Shown piece after piece: positions 67 to 14,787 of a DNA stretch of 21,551 nt (positions within the stretch are counted from its first letter, which is position 1; each line of letters starts with the position of its first letter). Below the pieces are notes generated by a model, which saw nothing but the letters and a program-made list of their open reading frames with translations, ran no database searches and was not told where the DNA came from. Location of the stretch: positions 1 through 21,551 of IMG/VR virus record IMGVR_UViG_3300008266_000575; one strand, given 5' to 3'. The translations under genes were made by a program, and so were the position numbers. The DNA is from a virus.

Positions 67-3000
67 ATGGCAAATGAATTCGTAGTACGCAACGGACTGC
101 TTGCGTTAGATAACAGTGTTATAAGTGGTTCTTTAACAGTAACCGGTGGAATAACAGGTTCTTTTTCAGGTACAGGTTCGTACGCTGCGTTTGCTTTATC
201 ATCATCTAATTCACTCACTTCATCATTCGCTTTTCAAGCAGCTAATGCATCTAACGCTGTTAGTGCATCATTTGCAACAGTAGCTGCTAATGCCTCTAGT
301 GCATCATTTGCTACAAACGCTTCAACAGCTGCTAGTGCATCATTTGCTACTAGTGCAGCAAATGCAACTACAGCATCTCATGCTTTAAATGCAGTAACAT
401 CATCCTTTGCTACGTTTGCTTCAACTGCAGCTAGTGCTTCGTTTGCATCTAACACAGCAACAGCAGCTTCTGCCTCGTTTGCTACAAACGCTTCAACAGC
501 AGCTAGTGCATCATTTGCTACTAATGCTGCTAGTGCAACTACAGCATCCCATGCTTTAAATGCAGTTACTGCCTCACATGCTTTAAATGCTGTAACCGCA
601 TCTCATGCATTGAATGCTGTAACAGCATCTTATATTCAATTAGCTGCTAGTGCATCTAATGCACTATCTGCTTCATATGCACTAAATGCATCTAATGCTA
701 CTAGTGCATCATATTCTAATTTTGCAATTTCATCTTCATTTGCAAGTAACGCAGCAAACGCTTCTACAGCGTCATTTGCTGCATTTGCCTCTACAGCTTC
801 AAATGCACAAACATTAGCACCAGGAACTACAGTTTCTGCTTCAAATATTTACGTTAATAATAATTTATTTGTTGCTGGTACAGCATCATTTGGTTACTTA
901 CAAACAGTAACTGGTTCAGCTGTAATTATAGGTGAACAATTTATTATATTAAACGCAGATTCACCTATATCTAGATATGCTGGTATTCAAATTTATGATA
1001 CTGGATCAGCATCAACTGCCTCATTTGAGTGGGACGGTGTAAGAGATAACTGGATTATAGTTGAAGAAACAGGATTATCAGCTGGTATTTTAACTGGTCC
1101 TACAGGATCAAAAGGTAGTGAAGTATTCCCTACAACAAATGCAATATTAAAAGGTACAGGGCACCATACAGTAGGTAATAGTAATATTAGTGACAATGGA
1201 AGTATTGTATCAGTTAATTCAAATACACAAATAACTGGTAGTTTAATTGTATCATCAGGTGTAACAGCTAATTTAACTGGAACATCTTCATTTGCAACAA
1301 CAGCATCTTATGCTGGTGCTGCTTCAAATGCAACTAGTGCCTCGTTTGCTACTAGTGCAGCAAATGCAACTACTGCTTCACATGCAGTGAATGCAGTAAC
1401 TGCATCTAGAGCATTGAATGCTAATACAGCATCTTATGCTACGTTTGCAGCAACTGCTACTAGTGCCTCGTTTGCTCCTAGTTTAGAAACATTAGCAACA
1501 GTAGCTGCTAGAGGTGCTACTGCAAATAATGCTATAGTAATTACTCCAACAGGAAAAACATTACAATTAGGTAATGCTGCTAGTGAGGGAGGAGCTGGTG
1601 TTTTATTTGCTGGTTCTCTTGCAAATAAAAACTGGTTTATAGGTAACCAATATAATGTAAATGCTGGTCTTGAATTTACTCCTACTGCTGCTGGTGATAG
1701 TACTACTATTGGTACTACTCCTTCGATGGTTATTAATGAAGGAGGTAGTGTTGGTATAGGTACTACATCACCTGCTTATAAATTAGATGTAAATGGTCCA
1801 TTAAGAGTTAATGATGCTATTTATTTTCAAGGTACCCTTATAGATGAAGCTGCTAATGAACCATCATACACTTGGTTAAGAGTACAACCATCCTCAGGAG
1901 ATAAAGCAGGTGTTTTACAAATAGGACCCTCAGGAACTAATAAAACTGGTGTAATTGAACTATATCCTTCTAGTTCATTTAATACTGCTTTAAGACATGT
2001 TATAGCAAATAGTGGTAGTAATGCTACATTAAGAATAGGAAGTGATGCTTCTGCTTTGCCGATTCAATTTATTTCTTCAAATTCTCCTACAGTAACAATA
2101 TTAAGTGGAGGTAGTGTTGGTATAGGCACTACATCACCCCCAGGTAAGTTAGCGGTTGAAACTGATACTTTTAAACGAGCTATTTTTATAAATTCTACCT
2201 CATCAACAATTACAGATTTTACTGCGGGGGGTACAGGTATAGCTTTTTCAAGAGCAACAGATGGTTCAAATAATTTACATGCTATTTTTGCTTATGAAAG
2301 TTCAACGACTCATAATTTTGCTTTAGCAACTAGAGGTAATTTAGTGTTTGCAGCTGGAGGATCATCTACTTATACATCTGCTCCTGAACGTATGAGAATT
2401 ACAGATGGAGGTAATGTTGGTATAGGCTCTACAACCCCTGCTTATAAACTAGATGTAAATGGAGGAGCAGCAGATACAACAATAGCCGCTCAAAATACAG
2501 GCCAAAATGCTGTTAGATTAAGACTCACAAATGAAGAAAGAGACTTTATAATAACAAATAGCCCAGCAGATGATTTATTATCGTTTTTTTATGGTGGAGT
2601 TAATAGATTACAATTTAACACAACAAACCAATGGTTTAATAGTGGTAATGTTGGTATAGGTACTACAGCTCCATCATCACAAGTTCACATTAACTCAGGA
2701 GGCTCATATACAAATACAGACGCAAATAATAGATTATTTATTGAAAGAGATAGCCATGCTTATATATTATATAGCTCCCCAGATGAAAGAGATCAAGGTT
2801 TACATTTTCATAATACAACAGATAATGCAATTGTAGGTCGTATAGCATATTTTCATAGAACAGCAGGTGATTCTATAAATCTTAGTGTTGCTAGCTCTAT
2901 AAGAATGACTGTTTATGCTGATGGTAATGTTGGTATAGGTACTACAACTCCAAGTGAAAAACTTCATACTATTGGGAATGTCAAAATAGAGCAAACATCC

Positions 3001-6000
3001 AATACTAATGCCGTTCTTACTTTAAACCCAAACTCAGGAACATTAGGAACAGGTTATCAATGGAATTTAGTTGGTGTAAACTCAGGAGGTAATTATGCTT
3101 TCCAAATTAGAGAAGCATCTTCTACATATTTGACAATAACTAACTCTGCTGGTGGCACAGGTGGTAGCATTGGTATAGGCACTACAGCACCCTTAGCTAG
3201 ACTCCACACATATGTTGGAACAAGTACTGTAGCATCAGCTTCTAATGCTATTGGTATATTTGAAAGCAGCGTTAATGGTGTAGTTCAAATAAATGGTCCT
3301 GATGCTAATTCAATGGGTCTATTTTTTGGAAGAACAGGAGCAGCATATTACTCAGGTATTGAAAGAGCAGGAACTGATTTATATTTAAAAAATAATAGCT
3401 CTGTTGCTGTAACAATTAATAGTGGTGGTAGTGTTGGTATAGGTACTACAAATCCAGGTAATAAACTATCTGTTATTGGAAGTGCTGCTGTAGTAACAGG
3501 TAATTTATTACTAACCCAAGGTTACGGTATTACTTGGAACAATGGCGATAACTACATACAAGGAATTTCAGGATATCATTTACAATTTACTACTTACGAT
3601 GGATCTTCACAGACAGAAGTAATGAGACTTACAGGAGGATCATCTGGTGGTGCAAGAGTAGGTATAGGTACTACAAATCCAGCATATAAACTAGATGTAG
3701 CAGGTGAAGCTAGAATTACAGGCTCAGTAATAGGAAACCAAAATTCTATTATTGGTGGTGCTTTTGGTACTACAACTTTAGCTAATATACCTAGTGCAAC
3801 TGGAGCTACTATAGGAACATATCTTAATACTTTTGCTTTTATAGATTTAGCAACACAAGCCGCTAATGGTTCTTGGATTGACTTTAGTTCAGGAAGTGGG
3901 GACGATTATCAAGGTAGAATTAGATATAATAATAGTCTTCAAAGCATGTATTTTTATACTAATGCTTCTTCTACCCCATTAGTAAGCTATACAAGTACTA
4001 ATGTTGGTATAGGCACAACATCCCCATCATACAAACTTCATGTAGCGGGTGATGTATTCTCTACAGGCACAATTCAAACTGATGGAAATATCTATATTTC
4101 TTATAATGGAGGTAGATTATATTTTGATAGACCAAACGGTGCTACCGTTGGTGCTGTAGGATGGAATACAGACGATAATTTTTATGTTGGTGGTCACCCC
4201 GATTATGGTCCTGGAGCAGGTAATGACGTTATAGTTAGAGGATTTGGAGCTAATCTTATTTTAGGAACAGCTTCAACAAACTATGTTTGGTTAAACTCTA
4301 GTGGAAATGTTGGTATAGGCACTACAGCACCAACACGAAAATTACATATAGGTTCAGGAGCAGGAAGTAGCCCATGGATGTTATTACAAGGATCCTTTAC
4401 TACACCCGCTATTGATCATTCAAGAATTTATTTTAATGATTATAATTTTGGTATAGGAGCTGGCAAATGGTCTTCTGGCGAAGCATCAAATGATGATGAT
4501 CTTTATCTTTGGTCTTATAATGGTACTGGTAGAGATATTAGATTTGCAGTAACAACAGATGGTTCAACTGCTGTAACTAGTAGTAACTGGACTACTAACA
4601 TGATTATTAAAAATAATGGTAGTATTGGTATAGGCACTACATTACCAAGCTACAAAACAGAAGTAGCAGGTGCTGTTGGTCAATACTGGAATGGTACTGC
4701 ATTTACTAGTACACCTCTTGCGTTAGCAATATCAAATACAAATGCAGGTGGATATGATCCTGTTTTAATACTCCAACAAGCAGATAGTGCTGGGACAGTA
4801 AAAAATGCAGGTGGTATAGGATTAGTGGGTACAGCAGCTTGGACCGCAGGTGATAATGCTTCTCAAGTTTCAGATATGTACTTCCTTGTTAAAAATAACA
4901 GTGGAGGAATATCTGAAAGAATGCGCATAAAAAGTAATGGTAATATTGGTATAGGTACAACATCCCCAATAGCAAAATTAGATGTACGAGGAGGAAGTGA
5001 TGGAGATGCAATGATCAGTATGGGATCTAACAGTGTAAGTGGTATATTAAATTCACAAGCAAACATATACATAAATGCTGATTCAGATAATGACTCTTCT
5101 TCAGGAGTTATAGGATTTGGATTTAATAGAACAGGATTTACTGGTGGAACGGAAACAATGAGAATTTTAGAAAATGGCAATGTTGGTATAGGAACTACAT
5201 TACCAAGTTTTAAACTACAAGTAGACCACGGCACAACAACTCAATATGTAGCTTCATTTAGAAATACAGCAGATAATTTACAATTAAAAATAGGTACTAC
5301 AACTGGTGCTTTATTAAATATTCAAGGTTCAACAATTAGTGCTAATGCTGCTTATAATATTGCTTTACAAGCAGATGGAGGTAATGTTGGTATAGGAATC
5401 CCAAATCCAAGCTCACTACTCCACACTTACACAACAACCGCTGCTGATAATGCGGGTCATATCCAATATGAAAATGGTAATACTGGAGTTGGTGCATTAG
5501 CAAATGCACAATTAATTGGTAAATCTAGATATGGTACTGCCCAACTAATGGTTTGGGAAAACTATGGTATTAGATTTGGTATGAGAAGCACAGCTAATGG
5601 TGGTGCTGGTGATATTTACTTTACTACTGGTACGGATAGTGTTCAAATGGTTATTAGAGGAAGTAATGTTGGTATTGGTACTACAACAGCAGATTCAATG
5701 CTTCGTGTTCAAGGAACATCACGCATAACAGGTCAATTTGTTCAAGGTAGTGGTGATGCTAGAGCAACATCCGGAACTACAATTGCACTTACAAGAAATA
5801 CAGCATTCTCAGCTAATAGTGATATAGGAGATGGTGAAAGATTTTTAAGCATAGTAAACGAAAGCTCAACATCAACAGCATTTTCTAATGTATGCTTTAG
5901 AATAAATCCAAATAGTGGAGGCAGCAGTGGCAATGCTATGTTAGATATGAAGTTTGTAAATAATGGATCACTAACTAGTACTTTATACTGGACCTTTAAC

Positions 6001-6369
6001 CACGGTGGTAGCTTTGGTGATAAATTAACATTAACAAGTGCTGGTACATTAACAGCAGCTGGTGACGTAGTAGCATACTCAGATGCTCGTTTAAAAGAAA
6101 ATATAATTACTATTGATAATGCTGTTGAAAAAGTAACAGCAATGAGAGGTGTATTCTTCAATAAAAAAGAGGATGAAACTAAATCAAGAAGATCAGGTGT
6201 TATTGCTCAAGAAATACAAGAAATACTACCAGAGGTGGTTACCACAAGTGCTGATGGTACATTAGGTGTAGCATATGGCAACATCGTAGGTGTATTAATC
6301 GAAGCAATCAAAGAACAACAAAAACAAATAGACGAACTCAAATATTTATTACAAACACAAAACAAATAA
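67..6369 (+). CDS. Giant modular tail fibre with C-terminal S74 intramolecular chaperone
   Basis: This is a 2100-residue probable receptor-binding fibre. A short N-terminal head (about 1-50) is followed by an Ala/Ser-rich tract of SASFATNA-type units (about 50-260). Next comes a globular shaft domain (about 267-335) resembling the NAGIEVxRG...RWN domains of T4-like cyanophage fibres, then a second SASF tract (about 407-472). From about 559 to 1883 there are 15 repeats of the form GNVGIGTTxPxxKLDV, spaced roughly 70-120 residues apart. The C-terminus has the Peptidase_S74 signature SDARLKEN, with the catalytic Ser2005 and Lys2010 pair, so self-cleavage is expected before Ser2005, releasing a 96-residue trimerisation chaperone. 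The end is a coiled coil (KEQQKQIDELKYLL). The ATG at 67 is the first in frame and has an A-rich leader without a Shine-Dalgarno sequence. S74 and fibre assignments are strong; the receptor is unknown. Confidence 0.9.
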   Translation: MANEFVVRNGLLALDNSVISGSLTVTGGITGSFSGTGSYAAFALSSSNSLTSSFAFQAANASNAVSASFATVAANASSASFATNASTAASASFATSAANATTASHALNAVTSSFATFASTAASASFASNTATAASASFATNASTAASASFATNAASATTASHALNAVTASHALNAVTASHALNAVTASYIQLAASASNALSASYALNASNATSASYSNFAISSSFASNAANASTASFAAFASTASNAQTLAPGTTVSASNIYVNNNLFVAGTASFGYLQTVTGSAVIIGEQFIILNADSPISRYAGIQIYDTGSASTASFEWDGVRDNWIIVEETGLSAGILTGPTGSKGSEVFPTTNAILKGTGHHTVGNSNISDNGSIVSVNSNTQITGSLIVSSGVTANLTGTSSFATTASYAGAASNATSASFATSAANATTASHAVNAVTASRALNANTASYATFAATATSASFAPSLETLATVAARGATANNAIVITPTGKTLQLGNAASEGGAGVLFAGSLANKNWFIGNQYNVNAGLEFTPTAAGDSTTIGTTPSMVINEGGSVGIGTTSPAYKLDVNGPLRVNDAIYFQGTLIDEAANEPSYTWLRVQPSSGDKAGVLQIGPSGTNKTGVIELYPSSSFNTALRHVIANSGSNATLRIGSDASALPIQFISSNSPTVTILSGGSVGIGTTSPPGKLAVETDTFKRAIFINSTSSTITDFTAGGTGIAFSRATDGSNNLHAIFAYESSTTHNFALATRGNLVFAAGGSSTYTSAPERMRITDGGNVGIGSTTPAYKLDVNGGAADTTIAAQNTGQNAVRLRLTNEERDFIITNSPADDLLSFFYGGVNRLQFNTTNQWFNSGNVGIGTTAPSSQVHINSGGSYTNTDANNRLFIERDSHAYILYSSPDERDQGLHFHNTTDNAIVGRIAYFHRTAGDSINLSVASSIRMTVYADGNVGIGTTTPSEKLHTIGNVKIEQTSNTNAVLTLNPNSGTLGTGYQWNLVGVNSGGNYAFQIREASSTYLTITNSAGGTGGSIGIGTTAPLARLHTYVGTSTVASASNAIGIFESSVNGVVQINGPDANSMGLFFGRTGAAYYSGIERAGTDLYLKNNSSVAVTINSGGSVGIGTTNPGNKLSVIGSAAVVTGNLLLTQGYGITWNNGDNYIQGISGYHLQFTTYDGSSQTEVMRLTGGSSGGARVGIGTTNPAYKLDVAGEARITGSVIGNQNSIIGGAFGTTTLANIPSATGATIGTYLNTFAFIDLATQAANGSWIDFSSGSGDDYQGRIRYNNSLQSMYFYTNASSTPLVSYTSTNVGIGTTSPSYKLHVAGDVFSTGTIQTDGNIYISYNGGRLYFDRPNGATVGAVGWNTDDNFYVGGHPDYGPGAGNDVIVRGFGANLILGTASTNYVWLNSSGNVGIGTTAPTRKLHIGSGAGSSPWMLLQGSFTTPAIDHSRIYFNDYNFGIGAGKWSSGEASNDDDLYLWSYNGTGRDIRFAVTTDGSTAVTSSNWTTNMIIKNNGSIGIGTTLPSYKTEVAGAVGQYWNGTAFTSTPLALAISNTNAGGYDPVLILQQADSAGTVKNAGGIGLVGTAAWTAGDNASQVSDMYFLVKNNSGGISERMRIKSNGNIGIGTTSPIAKLDVRGGSDGDAMISMGSNSVSGILNSQANIYINADSDNDSSSGVIGFGFNRTGFTGGTETMRILENGNVGIGTTLPSFKLQVDHGTTTQYVASFRNTADNLQLKIGTTTGALLNIQGSTISANAAYNIALQADGGNVGIGIPNPSSLLHTYTTTAADNAGHIQYENGNTGVGALANAQLIGKSRYGTAQLMVWENYGIRFGMRSTANGGAGDIYFTTGTDSVQMVIRGSNVGIGTTTADSMLRVQGTSRITGQFVQGSGDARATSGTTIALTRNTAFSANSDIGDGERFLSIVNESSTSTAFSNVCFRINPNSGGSSGNAMLDMKFVNNGSLTSTLYWTFNHGGSFGDKLTLTSAGTLTAAGDVVAYSDARLKENIITIDNAVEKVTAMRGVFFNKKEDETKSRRSGVIAQEIQEILPEVVTTSADGTLGVAYGNIVGVLIEAIKEQQKQIDELKYLLQTQNK
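544..624 (+). repeat. Three tandem 27-base repeats coding ASHALNAVT
   Basis: Three consecutive imperfect copies of a 27-base unit encode ASHALNAVT exactly three times, with synonymous differences between copies. They lie inside the fibre's Ala/Ser-rich tract. Conserved protein with drifting codons indicates selection on the peptide, or old duplications. Confidence 0.85.
1741..5715 (+). repeat. Array of 15 dispersed GIGTT-type fibre repeats
   Basis: Copies of about 19 codons, consensus G-N-V-G-I-G-T-T-x-P-x-x-K-L-D-V, begin near 1741, 2107, 2407, 2641, 2923, 3163, 3424, 3646, 3994, 4300, 4615, 4936, 5176, 5383 and 5659. The GGTATAGG(T/C)ACTAC core is highly similar at the DNA level, which offers sites for homologous recombination. 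Copy 14 reads GIGIPNP and copy 15 lacks the usual KL, so the array is degenerate at its 3' end. Confidence 0.9.
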
Positions 6370-6370
6370 A

Positions 6371-6775
6371 ATGGCAGTTAATTACAATTGGACGTTCGGT
6401 CCACTAGAAGCGTACCCAACAGCATCAGGAGAAACAGACGTAATCTTTATCGTACATTGGCAGTATCATGCTTCTGAAGTAGTAGAAACAACTACTTACA
6501 CATCAACATCAATCGGTACTATTGGTATTCCATTGACTACAGGTTCAGCATTTATTCCTTATCCTGAATTAACATTTGATGATGTTGAAAATTGGGTAGT
6601 AACAGCGATGGGTCCTGAGCAAGTAGCATCTTTAGAAGCTGGTTTAGCACAAAACATTGCTAATCAGATTAATCCACCAGTAGTGTATTTACCAAATCCA
6701 TGGGATACAACAACAACTACAACTACTACTACAACTAGTACAACAACAACTACAACAACTGAAGAACCAGCATAA
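6371..6775 (+). CDS. Small virion-associated protein with Thr-rich tail
   Basis: This 134-residue protein starts one base after the fibre stop codon, so it is probably co-transcribed and coupled. Residues 1-110 contain a compact domain beginning NYNWTFGPLEAYP. It resembles a small family common beside structural genes in marine T4-like phages; the function is not known to me. Residues about 111-134 are almost only threonine with one serine, ending in EEPA. They are coded by mixed ACA/ACT codons, a low-complexity triplet tract at about 6709-6759. Thr tracts of this type occur as flexible linkers in phage tail adhesins, but here the tract is C-terminal. There is no signal peptide or membrane segment. 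A tail-decoration or fibre-accessory role is inferred from position. Confidence 0.75.
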   Translation: MAVNYNWTFGPLEAYPTASGETDVIFIVHWQYHASEVVETTTYTSTSIGTIGIPLTTGSAFIPYPELTFDDVENWVVTAMGPEQVASLEAGLAQNIANQINPPVVYLPNPWDTTTTTTTTTTSTTTTTTTEEPA

Positions 6776-10902: not shown

Positions 10903-11388
10903 ATGGCAGTATTAAGTGCAAACGAAATAATGTTCACAGCGTTTGAGCCTAAAGTTCAGAATCGCTTTATCATGTATATAGCTGGTATTCCTGCTTACTT
11001 GATTAAAAGTGCTACTGCTCCTGGATTCGAAGCTGGTGAAATTATTTTAGATCACATCAACGTATATCGTAAAGTTAAAGGTAAAGTACGTTGGAACGAC
11101 ATGACTTTAAACTTATATGATCCTGTAACTCCATCAGGCGCTCAAGCTGTAATGGAATGGGCTCGTTTAGCACACGAATCAGTAACTGGTCGTGATGGCT
11201 ACTCTGATTTCTATAAAAAAGATTTAACTTTAGATATCTTAGGTCCAGTAGGTGATATTGTTGGTGAGTGGATTATCAAAGGTGCTTATGTAAAAACAGC
11301 AACTTTTGGTGAATACGATTGGGCAAATGAAGCCGCAATCAACTTATCAGTAACAGTAGCTATGGACTATTGCGTATTGAACTTCTAA
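10903..11388 (+). CDS. Tail tube protein, gp19-like
   Basis: This 161-residue product is close to the 163 residues of T4 gp19. It forms the hexameric rings of the inner tail tube inside the sheath. Recognisable parts are the N-terminal NRFIMYIAGIPAYLIKSATAPGFE strand pair (about 21-44), the Arg/Lys-rich strand following ILDHINVYRKVKGKVRW, the helix AQAVMEWARLAHE (about 79-90) and the C-terminal strands KTATFGEYDWAN...AMDYCVL typical of T4_gp19. The leader is acacaacataaaATG without a Shine-Dalgarno sequence. All five Arg codons are CGT or CGC, unlike the AGA-rich fibre and baseplate genes, suggesting high expression. A strong terminator follows. Confidence 0.93.
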   Translation: MAVLSANEIMFTAFEPKVQNRFIMYIAGIPAYLIKSATAPGFEAGEIILDHINVYRKVKGKVRWNDMTLNLYDPVTPSGAQAVMEWARLAHESVTGRDGYSDFYKKDLTLDILGPVGDIVGEWIIKGAYVKTATFGEYDWANEAAINLSVTVAMDYCVLNF

Positions 11389-11478: not shown

Positions 11479-12219
11479 ATGGCTGAATTAAAAATTCCAA
11501 CAGAAACAGTTTCGCTACCATCTAAAGGTTTACTGTATCCTGAAACATCACCACTCGCTAGTGGACAAATCGAAATGAAATACATGACAGCTAAGGAAGA
11601 AGATATCCTTACTAATGTCAATTACCTCAAAAACGGCACAGTAATAGACAAACTATTACAAGCACTAATCGTTTCCAAAATTGATTACAATGAGTTATTG
11701 ATCGGTGATAAAAACGCTGTATTAATTGCTGCTCGTATTTTAGGTTATGGTAAAGATTATACCTTTGTTGATGATAATAGTAAAGAAATTACTGTTGATT
11801 TAACTAAATTAGAAGATAAAAAGATTGATACATCTATTTTTCAACGTGGTGTAAATGAATTTACCTTTACATTACCACACTCAAGTAATAACATTACATT
11901 TAAGTTATTAACACAAGGTGATGAACAAAAAATTGAAGCTGAGATTAAGGGTATGCAAAAAGTAAACCCAAATGGTTCATTTGATGTTACTACACGTTTA
12001 AAATACATGATTACTTCAGTTGAAGGCAAACGTGAACAAAAAGACATTCGCGAATTTATTGATAATTATTTAATTGCTAAAGACGCAAGAGCATTACGTG
12101 AATACTATAATAAAATCTCTCCAGATGTTGATTTGTTATATAAGCCTGAAAGTGGGGACTATGCAGAGGAGGGCATAGTTGTACCTATTTCTATTAGCTT
12201 TTTTTGGCCTGACGCTTGA
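11479..12219 (+). CDS. Tail-assembly chaperone, T4 gp26-like (0-frame product)
   Basis: This 246-residue product has the T4_baseplate (gp26-type) signature near its N-terminus: VSLPSKGLLYPETSPLASGQ, then EMKYMTAKEEDILTN (about 33-48) and IDKLLQALI. T4 gp26 is a hub-assembly factor absent from the finished baseplate. Its position just upstream of the tape measure matches lambda G-type chaperones. The reading frame ends VPISISFFWPDA, followed by TGA. The F-F-W codons TTT TTT TGG form a T7 run at 12199-12205, where a +1 or -2 shift would join the downstream frame (11479-12490 as one fusion of about 336-337 residues). CGT is the main Arg codon. Confidence 0.85.
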   Translation: MAELKIPTETVSLPSKGLLYPETSPLASGQIEMKYMTAKEEDILTNVNYLKNGTVIDKLLQALIVSKIDYNELLIGDKNAVLIAARILGYGKDYTFVDDNSKEITVDLTKLEDKKIDTSIFQRGVNEFTFTLPHSSNNITFKLLTQGDEQKIEAEIKGMQKVNPNGSFDVTTRLKYMITSVEGKREQKDIREFIDNYLIAKDARALREYYNKISPDVDLLYKPESGDYAEEGIVVPISISFFWPDA

Positions 12220-12490
12220 TTATAGATTAGGATTATTCACCCAAATCCACGAAATAGTATTTCACGGAGGTGGTGGATATGATTGGGATACTGTTTATAA
12301 TATGCCTGTTTGGTTACGTAAGTTTACATTTGAAAAATTAAAGGAACACTACGAAAAACAACAGGAAGCAATAAATAAACAGCAAAACATGCTTAAAAAT
12401 GTATCTAATAAAGAATTAGCAAAGCCCGACATTGCTCCTAAACCAACAACTACAACACCAACATACACAGCGAAGGTACCTAAAAAATAG
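12179..12490 (+). CDS. Overlapping second-frame chaperone ORF, likely expressed by frameshift
   Basis: This open frame, +1 relative to the gp26-like gene, runs from just after an in-frame TAG (12176-12178) to the TAG at 12488-12490 and overlaps the gp26-like gene by 41 bases. Beyond the slip site it encodes GLTLDYRLGLFTQIHEIVFHGGGGYDWDTVYNMPVWLRKFTFEKLKEHYEKQ and a Lys/Gln/Thr-rich tail. That IHEIVFHG...NMPVWLRKFT core looks like the short gp51-like or lambda T-like part found before tape measures. There is no ATG until about 12301, inside the conserved core, so independent translation would need TTG at 12179. A GGAGG at 12168-12172 stands six bases before that TTG, which keeps internal initiation possible. 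A frameshift fusion is favoured. Confidence 0.7.
   Translation: MYLFLLAFFGLTLDYRLGLFTQIHEIVFHGGGGYDWDTVYNMPVWLRKFTFEKLKEHYEKQQEAINKQQNMLKNVSNKELAKPDIAPKPTTTTPTYTAKVPKK
12199..12205 (+). promoter_or_regulatory. Candidate programmed frameshift site (T7 run)
   Basis: Zero-frame codons here are AGC TTT TTT TGG. Skipping one T, or slipping back two, places the ribosome in the frame continuing GGC CTG ACG to 12490. A simple -1 slip reaches TGA at 12210 and is uninformative. The zero-frame stop follows at 12217. Phage Mu (-2) and Listeria phage PSA (+1) are known precedents in tail chaperone genes. Confidence 0.6.
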
Positions 12491-12531: not shown

Positions 12532-14787
12532 ATGGCAGATCCAGCACAATTAGCACAACAACTAGAAGATCTCAATAGAGAACTAGATAAGGTAGAGGAC
12601 TCAATTAAAAGTATAGCCGCTAGCCTTTCTAAAGGACTTAAATTGGATGATGTACTGAGAAAATCAGCGCAGGCTACTAGAGACTTAGCTGATGAATTTG
12701 AAAGAGGAGAAAATATTACTAAAAAAGTACAAAAGCAACTTAAAGCTAATAGAGATGTTATTGAAAAACAACTTCTAAAAGAAATTGAACTTCGTGCTAA
12801 AGGGTATAAGAAACTTGCTGATAATGTAGCATTACAAAGACAAATAGTAGAAAGATCTGATGCTCAATTAAGAACATTACAAAAAATAAATGAAGAATAT
12901 CAAAAGCAAAATAATTTATTTGCTTTACTAGGATCTAAACTAAAAGACTTTGGAAAATCCATACGAGAATTTTTTAGTGTAGCCAGCATCTTTAAGATGC
13001 TTATAGATGGCGCTTTACGCTTTAATAAAATATCAGTTGATATTAGCAAAAATTTAGATTACGGAGCGGATAATGCTAATAGAGTAACCAATGAAATGGT
13101 TAGGATGGCAAGAAGCTCTGATAACATAAATGTTACATTAGCTAATGCCGCTGAGGCAATGAGTCAATTAAATTCTGCTACTGGATTTAATGTTGAACTT
13201 TCAAGAGATGTTCTTGAAACTCAAATAATGCTAACTAAACAGCTAGGATTATCAGGGGATGAAGCAGCTATTGTTTATAAGTTTTCATTATTAACTGGAA
13301 AATCATCTTCCCAACTTGAAAAATCTTTATCTAGAGCATATGTAACAAATAAAAATGCTCTTAAAGTTGGTACATCATATAAAGAAGTTTTAGCAGCTTT
13401 ATCCAAAACATCAGGTGAATTAGCTGTTAGTTTAGGAACTAATCCTAACGTATTAGCTAAAGCAGTAGTACAGGCTAAAGCATTTGGTACTACACTTGAA
13501 CAAGTAAAATCACAAGGTGATGCTTTACTTGATTTTGAAACATCACTTGAAAACGAATTAAAAGCTGAATTATTAACGGGAGAACAGTTAAACCTAGAAA
13601 GAGCTAGAGCAGCCGCGTTAGCAGGTGATCAAGTAGCACTTGCTCAGGAACTTAATAACCAAGGTATGACTTTGGCTAAGTTTGAAAAGATGAATGTTCT
13701 AGGCCGTAGAGCATACGCTCAAGCCTTAGGATTATCTTCAGATGAACTTGCTGATCAGCTTCGTAAGCAAAAAATGGCTGTTGAAAGTGGTAAATCACTT
13801 GCTCAATTAACCCAAAAAGAAGCTGATGAAGCTAAAAAAAGACAAGATATACAAACTAAGTTTAACCAAGGTATTGATAAATTAAAAGATACAATTGGTA
13901 ATTTATTAGCTGGTCCTTTAGGTGCCTTTATAGATTCATTAGCAAATGGATTAAATTATGTAAATAAAATATTTAGTGTATTTGGTAAAATGGGTGGCTT
14001 AATCTCTAAATTCTTTGGAGGTAAAGTTGGTAATTTCTTAGGTGATGTAGCTTCTGTAGCTACAATAGGTGCCTTAATTGCTATTGTTACTAGATCATTA
14101 ACTAAAGGTACATTTTTTAACCCAATGATCACTAAAGACATTGGTGCTATTGGTGGTGGGGGTGGATTAATGAATATGTTTGGAGGAGGTGGAAAAGGTG
14201 GTGGATTAGGTAGAATAGGAAAAGCATTCAAAGGTGGTGGTGTTGCAGGTGCTAGTAAAGCTATAGGCCGAATGGCTAAAGGAAGTAGTGGACTAGCTAA
14301 ATTAGCTAAAGGCACAGGATATTTGTCATGATTATGTGCAGGTACTGATTTAGCAGGCAATCTAACAGATGAAAATAGAAGTACAGGTAATGCCTTAGCT
14401 AAAACATTAGATCAAAATAAATTTACAGCATTAGGTGCTGGTATAGGTGCATTGTTTGGAGGTGTTGGTGCTATACCAGGTGCCGCCATTGGTGGTTTAT
14501 TAGATTTTGCATTAGGTGATGCTACCCAAATAGTAAAAGATGGTATTGCATCTGCTAGTAGAGGGCCATTTACTATTATGGACTCATACGGTTCAACAGC
14601 TGTTACAAGTAAAGGCGACGGCTTAGCTGTATCGCCAAATATTAATGCGGGTGGCGGTGATTCATCCGCAGTTATTGCTGCTATTAATGATCTTAAAACA
14701 GCATTAATGAACCGCCCAATAACAATTAGTATGGATAGTAGACAAGTAGGCTCAGCATTGGTTCAAAGCTCATACAAGTCTGCATAA
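12532..14787 (+). CDS. Tail tape measure protein interrupted by one in-frame TGA
   Basis: The reading frame has 751 codons before the final TAA if the TGA at 14329-14331 is read through. The part before it is 599 residues, and a further 151 codons follow in the same frame with no other stop. Residues 1-130 are Lys/Glu-rich helix and coiled coil. A long helical middle follows (for example LGLSGDEAAIVYKFSLLTGKSSSQLEKSLSRAY), and about 457-527 is a Gly-rich, hydrophobic stretch that includes a membrane-like helix at about 504-523. After the TGA come a second Gly/Ala hydrophobic segment (ALGAGIGALFGGVGAIPGAA) and a conserved-looking tail, KGPFT-like then SPNINAGGG. The helical make-up, hydrophobic patches and place after the chaperones identify a tape measure that sets tail length. 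Whether the TGA is real, an error or recoded is open. Confidence 0.85.
14329..14331 (+). other. In-frame TGA codon within tape measure gene
   Basis: The context is TTG TCA TGA TTA TGT. Coding character continues in the same frame for 151 codons. The next possible start is TTG at 14452, which would omit 40 codons that also look coding. The base after the stop is T, not the leaky C. No other gene here needs TGA as sense. Confidence 0.8.

Follow-up and report, generated by a model that had tools for sequence, protein, structure and literature searches.

Two overlapping reading frames just 5' of the tape measure gene probably encode a tail assembly chaperone of the phage lambda G/GT type, made in two forms through +1 frameshifting and belonging to the T4 gp26 family. 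We put the probability of this reading, which comes from sequence comparison, at roughly 0.84. In the window (the whole 21,551-nucleotide stretch of viral DNA analysed here), most ribosomes would terminate at 12217 to give a 246-amino-acid G form. Some would skip one base at a run of seven Ts, where tRNA-Phe would re-pair in the +1 direction from UUU to UUU (UUU to UUY generally), giving a G-T fusion with the predicted window-type junction peptide SISFFGLTLDYR. By analogy with known tail chaperones, the G part would coat the tape measure protein, and the T part would recruit tail tube subunits. The features are as follows.

10903..11388, + strand: tail tube protein gene, 5' of G (phrog_4542, E 7e-20)
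11479..12219, + strand: G part (TAC-N), zero-frame ORF, T4 gp26/gp51-like, 246 aa, C-terminus SISFFWPDA
12166..12173, + strand: SD-like GAGGAGGG (shuffle test), with 26 nt between its GGAGG (12168-12172) and the T run
12176..12178, + strand: TAG closing the +1 frame 5' of the slip site (from the sequence)
12199..12209, + strand: putative slip site TTT TTT TGG CC, with T7 at 12199-12205 (cluster conservation, wobble bits, Phe codon control)
12200..12490, + strand: T part (TAC-C), +1-frame domain starting FFGLTLDYRLGLFTQIHEIVFHGGGGYDWDTVYNMPVWLRKFTF, helical with a disordered tail (alignment, AF2, profile search)
12217..12219, + strand: TGA, zero-frame stop, 18 nt from the first T of the slip site (from the sequence)
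12488-12490, + strand: TAG, +1-frame stop (from the sequence)
12532..14331, + strand: tape measure protein gene, immediately 3' of T, the expected chaperone client (position, relatives)

Layout of the locus

A preliminary description of this DNA had pointed to the overlapping frames before the tape measure, and all its coordinates held. The second ORF, 12179-12490, lies +1 relative to the zero frame of 11479-12219 and overlaps it by 41 bases that include the T7 run. The zero frame ends in SFFWPDA followed by TGA, and the second frame is open from directly after the TAG at 12176-12178 to its stop at 12488-12490. As had also been noted, this frame has no upstream ATG: its first ATG encodes the methionine of NMP, already inside the domain, and the sole common start codon ahead of the conserved block is the TTG at 12179. 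Because the TAG at 12176-12178 closes the +1 frame, any shift must fall between that stop and 12219.

The gene order is sheath (phrog_23), tube (phrog_4542), G, T and tape measure, which agrees with known chaperone loci and so counts for the chaperone reading. Flavobacterium phage immuto has its annotated tape measure gene in the same place. In the window the tape measure gene contains an in-frame TGA at 14329-14331, its frame being otherwise open to 14787. Two near-identical contigs, L001 and L004, carry sense codons at that position, and we regard the TGA as a nonsense variant or an assembly error of this contig. Elsewhere, positions 67-6369 encode a 2100-aa low-complexity protein with ASNASTASFA-type repeats, and the product of its neighbour at 6371-6775 ends in long threonine runs; together these are probably the tail fibre region.

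A putative slip site conserved across divergent homologues

We assembled homologues through two IMG/VR scans, which yielded 160 loci, and added isolates and MAG contigs. The set was grouped into 89 clusters sharing <85% identity around the junction; 132 distinct loci have a +1 ORF of at least 45 aa. Among isolated phages, the Flavobacterium phages immuto are the closest. Several related contigs belong to genome bins of Bacteroidota. The frame relation is the same in the isolate genomes of Flavobacterium phage immuto, Rhodothermus RM378 and Bacillus SP-15, as well as in MAG contigs, and its recurrence in 132 distinct loci puts the arrangement far beyond chance. IMG/VR scans with the SP-15 and XacN1 proteins found one or no relatives, and megablast of the locus against the phage collection gave no match.

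The junction reads TTTTTTTGGCCT in 77 of the 89 clusters, with near-variants in all others but one: TTTTTTTACCCT (three clusters), TTTTTTTATCCT (one), CTTTTTTGGCCT (three), TTTCTTTGGCCT (two), TTTCTTTTCCCT (one), TTTCTATTCCCT (one) and, in L039 alone, TTCTTTTGGCCC. Eighty-one clusters keep the seven-T run. The wobble bases of both slip Phe codons hold 1.91 bits, against ~0.1 at neighbouring wobble positions. These codons are TTT in 170 of 171 instances (85/86 and 85/85), whereas four other conserved Phe codons of the same genes are TTC in 14-26%; the clusters are related, so we claim no exact probability for this bias. Up to the T run, third codon positions are constrained as in the zero frame; from ~15 bases past it, they are constrained as in the +1 frame. 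Double coding accounts for the G and L codons that follow the run, so their conservation alone is no evidence for slippage; the Phe wobble bases are the sharper test.

An independent start for the second frame is missing from many homologues. In 25 of the 132 loci, the +1 frame opens just 1-3 codons 5' of the run, and 22 of these 25 contain no ATG, GTG or TTG before codon 13 of the T domain, which practically rules out a separately started T in those loci. The overlap holds a conserved slip site, and the second ORF lacks a start of its own. The preliminary description had proposed to test, by aligning homologues, whether the T run and both frames are kept with no start for the second; they are, with no start near the slip in those 22 loci. 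Among the outcomes it had named as speaking against a programmed shift are both parts encoded in one frame without a slip site and an indel in the T7 run. The former was found in no member of the +1 group, and L001 and L004 carry identical sequence through the gene, which makes an indel error unlikely.

The zero-frame stop varies. It falls 15-24 nt after the first T in homologues and may be TAG, TGA or TAA, so it is neither a slip-site component nor the pausing signal. The single TTC slip codon belongs to L039, whose site is TTCTTTT and which has lost the overlapping +1 ORF to an insert between G and T. This insert (L039 3727-4420), located directly behind the altered slip site, is an ORF with a GIY-YIG endonuclease-like start, and T then has its own ATG. 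Rfam returned no match in the window or in L039, so the state of L039 cannot be put down to a known intron family. L039 is an exception that fits.

Upstream of the slip lies a further conserved feature. GGAGG, AGGAG or GAGGA occurs ≤60 nt before the slip in 66 of 89 clusters, whereas 300 synonymous shuffles gave 23.5 on average and never more than 34. Copies cluster around -45 to -20, with few in other parts of the gene, and they are spelled with GGG and GAG codons, which are less frequent. The element is therefore conserved beyond codon usage, possibly as a stimulator or as a leftover initiation signal. The dnaX stimulator lies ~10 nt from its slip. In prfB, an SD-like stimulator lies 3 nt upstream of the CTT TGA slip (PMC12421855). 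At 26 nt, the window's element is too far upstream for known stimulators. Its conservation is made more puzzling by Flavobacterium johnsoniae, where prfB shifting is poor and SD sequences are rarely used (PMC12421855).

Direction of the shift and rival explanations

Homologues that break the T run bear on the direction of the shift. The frame relation is kept in TTTCTTTGG (L049, L081), TTTCTTTTC (L026), TTTCTATTC (L083) and TTCTTTCGT (L089), and every one of these contains UUU followed by a pyrimidine. At L083 (TTT CTA TTC) and L089 (TTC TTT CGT), a +1 shift from UUU to UUC re-pairs perfectly, whereas a -2 shift finds no matching codon. These homologues favour +1 over -2 re-pairing and disfavour transcriptional slippage. 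The base 5' of the run is C in 60 clusters, G in 20, A in seven and T in two, so that C or G precedes the run in 80 of 89; the wobble background is A 40%, T 37%, G 12% and C 12%. The excess of C and G and the scarcity of T indicate that the -1 heptamer T_TTT_TTT is avoided. Across homologues the A site holds no stop and no fixed rare codon (UGG, UAC, UAU, UUC, CAC, AGU, CGU). A conserved stimulatory RNA structure was not detected either: for downstream or flanking sequence, no consensus pairs emerged from alifold, and over five segments the mean z ranged from -0.1 to -0.7.

The same two-form chaperone could arise through a -2 shift of the kind known in phage Mu (PMC5009743), with tRNA-Phe on the second UUU slipping back two bases and adding one Phe (SFFFG; SISFFFGLTLDYR). 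On the T7 of most members such re-pairing would be perfect and, by pairing, equal to +1. The two loci just described, L083 and L089, offer it no codon for proper re-pairing, so that re-pairing in all members, as for a Mu-type site, is not found, and TTTCTTT members, among them immuto with its site AGC TTT CTT TGG, would need wobble pairing by tRNA-Leu. We give the -2 route a small chance. Comparative evidence bears out the earlier proposal of a programmed +1 or -2 shift by which a gp26-like chaperone is joined with a partner encoded in the second frame, and it favours +1. RNA polymerase might instead drop one T or add two at the T7 run, after which ordinary translation would give the fusion. 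The long run retained by most clusters would suit polymerase slippage, but frames are unchanged where the run is T3-C-T3 or shorter (L026, L049, L081, L083, L089), and T8 is avoided rather than favoured; we consider this quite improbable.

T could also be a separate protein begun at TTG 12179 behind the GGAGG, or at another weak start. The GGAGG is present where the preliminary description had placed it, the 6-nt spacing to TTG is good in the window, the SD-like element is conserved, and the free T ORF of L039 does have its own ATG after the inserted ORF. The proposed start did not hold up in homologues, however: a +1-frame start lies 4-12 nt past the SD-like element in only 6 of 66 clusters, so the element is no conserved start signal for T. 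The startless loci, the unconserved +1-frame sequence ahead of FFG and the wobble constraint on the T run, which separate initiation leaves unaccounted for, weigh further against it. We rejected separate initiation on the scarcity of starts and the 22 startless loci, and rate it very improbable indeed. An assembly or sequencing indel that split one gene is a negligible prospect; homopolymer runs are error-prone, but a frame relation shared by 132 distinct loci, from isolates and MAG contigs alike, already refutes it. We infer that the shift is ribosomal and runs in the +1 direction.

Family, structure and relatives of the two parts

Profile matches place the G part in the T4 gp26/gp51 family (PF12322/phrog_150); PF12322 is the family of both T4 proteins. 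The match to phrog_150 (baseplate hub) has E 1.5e-7. The match to PF12322 is weak (E 0.005; 17 bits, below the 24.5-bit cut-off), but homologues from SP-15 (100 bits) and RM378 (37.6 bits) pass that cut-off. An AF2 model of G (pLDDT 92.9), predicted separately from T with the window and IMG/VR sequences as input, matched, in BFVD, the baseplate hub subunit of SP-15 as well as T4-like hub assembly proteins (best E 4.6e-18). Among PDB entries the HK97 tail assembly chaperone ranked first, though the match is weak (Foldseek E 0.48; VIA Z 4.9, rmsd 3.7, 78 residues). PDB chains searched with G and T sequence profiles gave no match.

The T part had been described as having a well-conserved-looking core, and the +1-frame domain is indeed kept across divergent homologue clusters in a 43-row alignment (A5). 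Its AF2 model has helices at residues 6-22, 29-33 and 37-69, with pLDDT ~90 over residues 11-60 and a disordered tail; the best BFVD match to this model had E only 0.01 or worse. In L011 (741-3431) the T domain lies in one frame with the tape measure (897 aa), while a stop ends T in its close relative L012. The immuto annotation reduces the T part to a 36-codon fragment.

More distant relatives appear to shift the other way. All 14 examined (XacN1, CM1, PA5oct, Paride, Phosso, Atu_ph07, XaC1, PBECO4, CBB, GAP32, PHA46, Vibrio 2.275, cyanophage C48C1 and LR756511, with near-duplicates that include PA5oct/Paride and CBB/GAP32) carry T_TTT_TTY near the end of G and a downstream ORF in the -1 frame. 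When 1122 six-frame ORFs were searched by hmmsearch with the T profile of the +1 group, the shifted-frame ORF ranked above every decoy in 14 of 19 other phages (E 3e-24 to 0.24); XaC1 ranked lower, and the search missed those of PA5oct, Paride, Atu_ph07 and RM378. Taken as a set, these hits support homology of the +1 and -1 T domains well; for single members the support is weak. An hhalign comparison of the two groups (E 9e-11) was set aside, one of six column-shuffled controls also being high-scoring. In a cyanophage (L184), the ORF at 1677-1781 annotated 'baseplate hub assembly catalyst' falls within the -1-frame T domain region and so probably represents a piece of the long chaperone, not a gene.

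Comparison supports the lambda G/GT-like arrangement in a T4 gp26/gp51 setting that the preliminary description had proposed. Like lambda, the window has a pair of overlapping frames ahead of the tape measure gene and a T without its own start, and would have a slippery site and a short and a fused long form. Lambda shifts -1 and the window apparently +1, and the window's G falls in the T4 gp26 (PF12322) family; the two are likened by arrangement. T4 itself, according to PMC10885494 (citing Vladimirov et al. 2022), has separate genes, gp26 and gp51 (PF12322), for the short and long forms, unlike the window's one gene with a putative shift. The G parts share PF12322/phrog_150, and the C-terminus of T4 gp51 holds a T-like stretch, fused in frame, with 33% identity to the -1-frame T domain of C48C1 (pairwise E 1e-8). 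One family thus seems to have three routes to the same two-form chaperone: +1 shifting, -1 shifting and, in T4, two genes, one of them with its T-like stretch in frame.

Other known systems share features with this one. In the PF12322 chaperones of jumbo phages and cyanophages, G ends with the same Phe-Phe codons, the T domain is homologous and the position is the same; they combine T_TTT_TTY with a -1 frame, whereas the +1 group avoids a preceding T. In prfB (release factor 2), as proposed here, the P-site tRNA re-pairs one base forward on a pyrimidine run, but the window has a sense codon in place of an A-site stop, and its SD-like sequence lies at 26 nt rather than 3 nt. Tail chaperone fusions also enter the +1 frame in phage Mu, by -2, and in halovirus HSTV-2, by a +1 shift called very likely (PMC5009743); these belong to other phage families, the HSTV-2 host is archaeal, and the likeness drawn here is one of description.

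A bolder and more tentative idea, to which we give somewhat less than even odds, is that one chaperone gene switched shift direction at the same Phe-Phe codons. It would run +1 where C or G precedes the T run (Bacteroidota-type phages and the SP-15 group), -1 where a T does (jumbo phages and cyanophages) and as two genes in T4; the +1 site would be a new kind, UUU-Y with an A-site sense codon and the SD-like element 26 nt upstream as a long-range stimulator. The -1 and T4 cases are at least partly published (PMC12846349 and PMC10885494, each citing Vladimirov 2022), with poly-T -1 signals in T4-like TAC genes mentioned in PMC12846349. The literature searched, whose coverage was incomplete, yielded no account of the +1 case.

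Current annotation misses the T part. Among the homologues there would be hundreds of naturally varying +1 sites that lack a stop codon, a type for which bacteria have supplied few examples. The base before the T run would set the direction of the shift, a single-base rule that is directly testable. T4 serves as the textbook case of a phage lacking the otherwise conserved frameshift of tail chaperones (PMC5009743). Since kin of gp26 and gp51 appear to frameshift, forward or backward, the two-gene arrangement of T4 looks derived.
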